This document shows positions 950 through 1,268 of a stretch of 20,385 nucleotides of DNA, one piece after another. The stretch's first letter is position 1, and the number at the start of each line of letters is the position of its first letter. The stretch is from the IMG/VR virus record IMGVR_UViG_3300037493_000426, positions 1 through 20,385 of that record; one strand, 5' to 3'. Position numbers and translations under genes: made by a program. The stretch comes from a virus. The notes under the pieces were generated by a model. It saw only the letters and a program-made list of their open reading frames with translations. It was not told the origin of the DNA and did not search any database.

Positions 950-1197
950 TGAAAAACAACCCTTGGAGTGAGATGGACAAGCTAATGGCGGAAACTACCG
1001 TTTCCCGTAAGGACGGGTGGTGGTCTATGCGGGACTTCGCGGACAACTACAAGTGCCCCAGAAGCACAGCCCGATCACGAATTGACTCTTGGCTTGCGCT
1101 AGGCGCACTTGAGAAGAAAGCGGGAGTAGTGATGGATGGAAAACGCGGCTCCTACTACCGCTACGTCAAAACCTTTTGCAATGGTCTAAAAGGATAA
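949..1197 (+). CDS. Small winged-helix-like DNA-binding protein
   Basis: An 82-residue protein beginning MKNNPWSEMDKL, whose ATG overlaps the phosphoesterase stop (TAATG). The segment from WWSMRDFADNYKCPRSTARSRI to LGALEKK reads as helix-turn-helix: residues in the MRDFADNY region form the first helix and CPRSTARSRIDSWLALG the recognition helix and next turn. It is followed by KRGSYYRYVKTF, which resembles the beta wing seen when small wHTH proteins end on a strand pair. A role as transcription regulator is inferred from fold-like features only. Its last 23 nt also form the 5' acceptor and D arm of the tRNA-like RNA at 1175-1268, so mature RNA and intact mRNA cannot come from the same transcript. 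It could instead be a replication accessory DNA-binding protein. Confidence 0.55.
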   Translation: MKNNPWSEMDKLMAETTVSRKDGWWSMRDFADNYKCPRSTARSRIDSWLALGALEKKAGVVMDGKRGSYYRYVKTFCNGLKG

Positions 1198-1268
1198 GAC
1201 CTCAGTGCTACCAACGGGACGCCGTTGGGGCTAGACTGAGAATGGAGGTTCGAGCCCTCCTTGCAAAA
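1175..1268 (+). tRNA. tRNA-like RNA with an enlarged anticodon arm (possibly non-decoding)
   Basis: The 94-nt element has a 7-bp acceptor (TTTGCAA with TTGCAAA, 1175-1181 and 1261-1267), TG at positions 8-9, a D arm with stem GTCT/AGAC and GG in its loop, a T arm GGAGG-TTCGAGC-CCTCC with the consensus T loop, and discriminator A at 1268. No CCA is encoded. The anticodon stem TCAGT/ACTGA encloses 28 nt instead of 7. Inside, CTA/TAG and CCAACG/CGTTGG pair into a longer hairpin with loop GGACGC. No joining of the two loop edges to 7 nt puts a U at position 33, so I assign no anticodon. Readings: tRNA with a 21-nt insertion, decayed tRNA, or a tRNA mimic. It lies between two coding regions on the same strand, overlapping the first by 23 nt. 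Confidence 0.65.

Follow-up and report, generated by a model that had tools for sequence, protein, structure and literature searches.

A conserved tRNA-like RNA of uncultured phages in which a hairpin arm replaces the anticodon loop

Introduction

The tRNA genes of phages are usually read as codon supplements. The stretch of viral DNA analysed here (hereafter, the window: 20,385 nt, positions 1 to 20,385 of IMG/VR record IMGVR_UViG_3300037493_000426) encodes an RNA that has the body of a tRNA but lacks an anticodon loop. This locus raises the question whether such an RNA is a tRNA interrupted by an intron, a tRNA gene in decay, an element of a polycistronic mRNA, or a molecule that employs the tRNA fold for an end other than decoding.

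Results

A tRNA body with a replaced loop

The tRNA-like RNA occupies positions 1175-1268 (+), from the acceptor to the discriminator, with 28 nt where the anticodon loop would be. The Rfam tRNA model (RF00005) covers this span across all 71 model positions at 41.1 bits, above the gathering cut-off of 29 bits (E 1.1e-7 for that search), and aligns the 28 nt as an insertion in the place of the 7-nt loop; the family covariance model, R1, scores the RNA at 104 bits. ARAGORN with default settings called no tRNA in the window, and an Rfam scan of the whole window at gathering scores returned no match, the tRNA-like RNA included. The predicted single-strand fold (-36.5 kcal/mol) has a z-score of -3.84 against dinucleotide shuffles, one of 200 shuffles being equally stable.

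The 5' strand of the acceptor, UUUGCAA (1175-1181), pairs with 1261-1267 within the 3' segment UUGCAAA plus discriminator A (1261-1268), which gives 7 bp, or 8 bp if a 1174-1268 pair is added; no CCA is encoded at the 3' end. The D arm, GUCU-AAAAGGAUA-AGAC (1184-1200), has G18 and G19 at 1192-1193; the anticodon stem joins UCAGU (1202-1206) to ACUGA (1235-1239); and the T arm is GGAGG-UUCGAGC-CCUCC (1244-1260). All of these elements lie on the plus strand.

Distribution among phages

Besides the window, 26 contigs of uncultured phages carry the same RNA, and each record that was searched in full has a single copy. These relatives were collected by two routes: a search with the 80-aa protein encoded downstream of the RNA fetched 11 phage contigs, 10 of which carry it, and pattern scans of IMG/VR added more, with R1 used to sort the candidates. 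The carriers include contigs of 50.7 and 68.6 kb (L012 and L013), a 37-kb contig whose downstream region differs (L064) and a 21-kb contig with different genes (L033). The last of these harbors the most divergent member (L033:167-280), which was found by pattern, was left out of the building of R1 and nevertheless scores 67 bits with that model (E 1e-17). Ordinary tRNAs in the searched loci reach only 22-46 bits with R1, so that the family is separate from them.

Outside these phages, the searches were negative. When 84,980 genomes of bacteria and archaea were scanned with the pattern, two matches appeared, both attributable to chance, and a scan of 299 genomes of one phylum, in which few candidates were scored per genome, yielded nothing beyond two weak matches as long as an ordinary tRNA (71-72 nt), at no more than 42 bits. 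The nearest named phage, C75C1 (capsid 57%, terminase 44%), is without the RNA, and the matches listed by blastn against named phages were short (20-29 query bases) and mostly within annotated tRNAs. At the expected place in one relative, L011 (L011:2620-2680), the RNA is missing as after a deletion, with just TCACAA left at the position of the acceptor 3' strand, ahead of the downstream ATG. This phage has likely lost the RNA, which would therefore be dispensable in at least one lineage.

Separately, a tRNA-rich 138-kb virus encodes an ordinary tRNA-Arg(ACG) (L104:5645-5720) whose elbow is unusual in the same way (A19-U56, TTTGAGC T loop); this tRNA scores 46 bits with R1 and possibly hints at the origin of the family.

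Covariation of the stems and the elbow

The main covariation test involved 14 divergent members (a 17-member version was also run). Both-sided changes occur at 17 of the 32 pairs, 98.4% of pair cells form standard pairs, and the covariation score was reached in none of 500 shuffles; when the partners were slid by 1-3 columns as a control, pairing fell to 43-53%. The covarying helices are the acceptor (five of seven pairs with both-sided changes), the D stem, the T stem (three of five pairs), the anticodon stem, where the top pair alternates between U-A and G-C and the third between A-U and G-C, and the extension that replaces the loop (five of 10 pairs). The tertiary elbow pair 19-56 covaries as well, being G-C in the window (G19 with C56 at 1251) and in L012, and A-U elsewhere. 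U8, G18, T54, T55, A58 and the purines of the D loop are invariant across the aligned members. Pair 1-72 is mismatched in many members, and the acceptor is therefore weaker in these.

A U-G pair, 1209-1229, is invariant in all members, and in most of them a G-U pair closes the D stem at its base. Because of these conserved pairs, the RNA is assigned to the plus strand; a DNA cruciform and an RNA of the reverse strand were considered and rejected, given that conserved G-U pairs fit only the plus-strand RNA.

The same data bear on the possibility that the locus is a decayed tRNA gene or an artefact of assembly or local insertion. That pair 1-72 is weak or absent in many relatives could be cited in its favor. 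However, the RNA is common to independent contigs from many samples, and its stems and elbow are kept by compensatory change; this explanation is contradicted by the covariation and is all but excluded.

A constant hairpin in place of the anticodon loop

The 28-nt extension (1207-1234, +) is kept in all 27 contigs. Comparison of homologues shows that GCU (1207-1209) pairs with GGC (1229-1231), followed by a single bulged purine, A1210 in the window, and a 7-bp helix (1211-1217 with 1222-1228) the sequence of which is free except near the base. The helix is capped by the tetraloop GACG (1218-1221), which is invariant in every aligned member in two alignments; GACG was demanded by the first two search patterns, and the members found without that demand also carry it. 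On the 3' side, a bulge (1232-1234) measures 3 nt in every aligned member and is free in sequence, the variants in relatives being TAG, TTT, AAT, CAA, CAT, TGA, TAC, TAT and AAA. The constant core of the hairpin can thus be written as GCU-R-C ... GACG ... GGGGC.

The insert is 28 nt long in almost every member; L033 has about 20 extra nt on the strand opposite the 3-nt bulge. These extra nucleotides could form a hairpin of their own (AGCATG/CGTGCT).

An earlier note, made from the sequence alone, had proposed a tRNA-like RNA at 1175-1268 with 28 nt for the 7-nt loop, a 7-bp acceptor, a GTCT/AGAC D stem, GG in the D loop, the T arm GGAGG-TTCGAGC-CCTCC, discriminator A and some 15 bp in total in the long arm, and all of this held. 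The pairing of CTA with TAG that it placed within the insert failed: this pairing uses the hypervariable 3-nt bulge and is not conserved in relatives.

A bulge of fixed length and free sequence, combined with a constant loop and flanking pairs, is the pattern of a recognition element mounted on a hinge. That the constant hairpin is a binding site is inferred from the pattern of fixed and free positions; there are no binding data.

Evidence against a decoding role

A decoding tRNA is expected to fold into a cloverleaf (acceptor, D and T arms) held by elbow contacts, as this RNA does (as indicated by the RF00005 score of 41.1 bits and the covariation of the arms and the 19-56 pair), and to carry a 7-nt anticodon loop with U33, which this RNA lacks. 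The most obvious rescue is a small intron in the anticodon loop, spliced out to yield a decoding tRNA. In support of this possibility, the insertion sits at the usual intron position, and ARAGORN with introns allowed proposes a tRNA-Gly(acc) with an 8-nt intron. Against it, U33 is absent at every 5'/3' junction of the insert that restores a 7-nt loop in all 14 members, so that the exons of such a pre-tRNA could not be rejoined into a valid anticodon loop. Furthermore, no homologue with an ordinary anticodon loop was found among the relatives collected; the insert keeps its 28 nt in almost all members, and compensatory changes in its apical helix surround a loop that never varies; the archaeal splice motif has paired bulges, whereas the insert has a single bulge of 3 nt; and a group I intron would be far longer than this insert. 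The lack of any splice junction that gives U33 in any member makes both an intron and a decoding role very unlikely, with the proviso that there are no biochemical data on aminoacylation or ribosome use.

The earlier note had preferred a non-decoding mimic over an intron-bearing or decayed tRNA and had remarked that no junction supplied U33 in the window; the latter observation held and extends to the 14 members. It had also proposed collecting homologues and examining the extra helix for covariation. Both were done, the extra helix and the elbow covary, the former strongly, and the preference for a mimic is supported.

Comparison with known tRNA-like RNAs

With a canonical tRNA (RF00005), the mimic shares the acceptor, the D and T arms, a 4-nt variable loop, U8, A14/A15, G18, T54, T55, A58 and the 19-56 elbow pair. 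It differs in the absence of an anticodon loop and U33, in an arm of about 15 bp that ends in a constant GACG-capped hairpin, and in the frequent mismatch of pair 1-72. No Rfam 15 family other than tRNA matches the RNA at gathering score.

Like the mimic, the bacterial Y RNA YrlA (RF02553) is small and does not decode; it combines D, T and acceptor arms resembling those of a tRNA with a separate stem for protein binding (PMC8394870). The ends of YrlA itself form the large Ro60-binding stem, whereas in the mimic the ends form the acceptor and a tetraloop closes the extra arm. None of the five phages tested reached the RF02553 cut-off (19.6 bits at best, over the 3' half of the RNA plus the following tRNA, against 69), and no match was listed for the region in the window at E values up to 10. 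Judged by covariance model and architecture, the mimic does not fit YrlA or the bacterial Y RNAs; there are no data on Ro60 (Rsr) binding.

The tRNA-like domain of tmRNA resembles the mimic in combining a tRNA acceptor and T arm without an anticodon. In contrast, the mimic has a complete D arm, consists of only 94 nt and includes no mRNA-like region or tag. Neither a tmRNA call by ARAGORN nor an Rfam match was obtained, and the defining features (mRNA-like region, tag peptide, pseudoknots) are lacking; the size and content of the RNA exclude a tmRNA.

The closest analogue in design is the engineered "tRNA scaffold", in which a foreign hairpin is substituted for the anticodon loop of a tRNA body, an arrangement that makes stable RNAs and has even been used to present a coat-protein operator (PMC3753655). 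That scaffold is man-made, whereas the hairpin of the natural mimic is conserved and covarying. We found no description of this RNA in the literature searched; subscription papers were mostly outside that search.

Gene neighborhood and a possible cis-acting role

In the window, the RNA is flanked by a small upstream ORF (949-1197, +) that resembles helix-turn-helix (HTH) proteins (Pfam HTH_23 only at E 0.058), with its last codons and stop inside the 5' part of the RNA, and by the 80-aa ORF (1275-1517, +). The latter is conserved in relatives, usually directly after the RNA, and belongs to no known family according to homologue and family searches. The stop codon of the upstream ORF falls inside the RNA in most members, and therefore 5' cleavage would cut the upstream mRNA before its stop codon, which counts against an excised RNA. 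The upstream gene itself varies among relatives, encoding the HTH protein, a 208-aa phrog_3704 protein, or what we take to be, by reading the sequences without a database match, a DnaQ-like exonuclease or a metallophosphoesterase; such diversity fits an independent RNA gene. The phrog_3704 gene (L001:5300-5923; named ferredoxin or PurM in cyanophage records) directly precedes the mimic in several phages. It was considered as a fixed partner and rejected: the Pseudanabaena phage Pam5 relative is without the RNA, and the window is without the gene.

In several phages, the 3' end of the RNA lies 1-7 nt ahead of the downstream ATG, leaving no room for a ribosome-binding site. Inverted repeats (1223-1230/1292-1299 and 1221-1227/1280-1286) suggested that one strand of the hairpin might pair with the beginning of the downstream gene; this was rejected, since the hairpin changes in relatives and the gene start does not.

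In two relatives, a genuine tRNA-Thr(UGU) follows the mimic: 3 nt downstream in L062 (L062:5779-5851) and, with a second hairpin in between, in L032 (L032:3311-3383). Other relatives, such as L084 (L084:14983-15057), have a single tRNA-Thr(UGU) elsewhere in the genome. A tRNA-Thr directly after the mimic is the layout of a small tRNA-type array, which suggests, in the absence of processing data, that the mimic may be matured by RNase P and related enzymes; RNase P cutting that tRNA would free the 3' end of the mimic.

Between the mimic and the 80-aa ORF, seven loci (L005:5925-5990, L007:2801-2866, L032:3245-3307, and in L009, L010, L026 and L030) contain a second conserved structured RNA. A long stem closes this RNA and encloses two hairpins (CGG..CCG; AAGCC..GGCTT/TAGCC..GGCTA); where L005/L007 and L032 differ, the differences are compensatory. 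A copy in L020 has no Rfam match.

The main rival of a free RNA is a cis-acting element of a polycistronic mRNA that serves as a processing site or a stability or translation switch between the upstream and the 80-aa genes. It is supported by the overlap with the end of the upstream ORF, the proximity to the downstream ATG, and the failure to find a promoter-like site adjoining the RNA. However, in the phages that have them, the second hairpin or the tRNA-Thr breaks the adjacency to the downstream gene, the neighbors are quite different in L013, L033 and L064, and a cis element would need neither a covarying tertiary elbow nor an invariant apical loop. We consider this explanation unlikely.

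Discussion

The data support a tRNA mimic that is real, under selection and non-decoding. What it does is inferred, and there are no expression, processing or binding data; on balance, we favor, with moderate confidence, a stand-alone phage RNA that presents its hairpin in trans. Under this scenario, the mimic would be transcribed on the plus strand together with the neighboring small genes and probably excised by host tRNA-processing enzymes, with CCA added afterwards. It would fold into an L-shape with an intact elbow, a step supported by the covariation, in which the anticodon arm gives way to a longer arm, bent at the fixed 3-nt bulge and capped by the constant hairpin. The tRNA body would supply stability and access to the tRNA-handling machinery, and the constant hairpin may be the site at which an as yet unidentified protein or RNA of the phage or the host binds in trans. 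In effect, the mimic would be a natural counterpart of the engineered scaffold.

A narrower form of this explanation is a decoy or decoy-like antagonist of a host defense factor that recognizes the elbow, the acceptor or the hairpin. Phages use tRNAs against tRNA-targeting defenses such as PARIS (PMC11455837), and the RNA behaves as an accessory gene in different phage backgrounds. However, it lacks the anticodon loop, the very part that known anticodon nucleases cut, and no link to a defense system was found. The decoy role, which had been suggested along with the mimic, is thus not shown and appears unlikely; just the mimic part is supported.

In a bolder version, the stand-alone mimic would represent a class of phage RNA not described before: a "tRNA scaffold" of natural origin with a bent protein-binding hairpin arm. 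Host tRNA enzymes would mature it, and during infection it would act in trans, perhaps capturing a host factor or organizing a phage protein. This version is compatible with the evidence, but we rate it as somewhat less likely than not.

This RNA is overlooked by standard tRNA finders at default settings; as a defined 94-nt molecule with a constant loop, it is directly usable as bait to fish for its partner. That a phage RNA is conserved with its tRNA body retained and its anticodon exchanged for another recognition element implies that phages use the tRNA fold for other ends, too.
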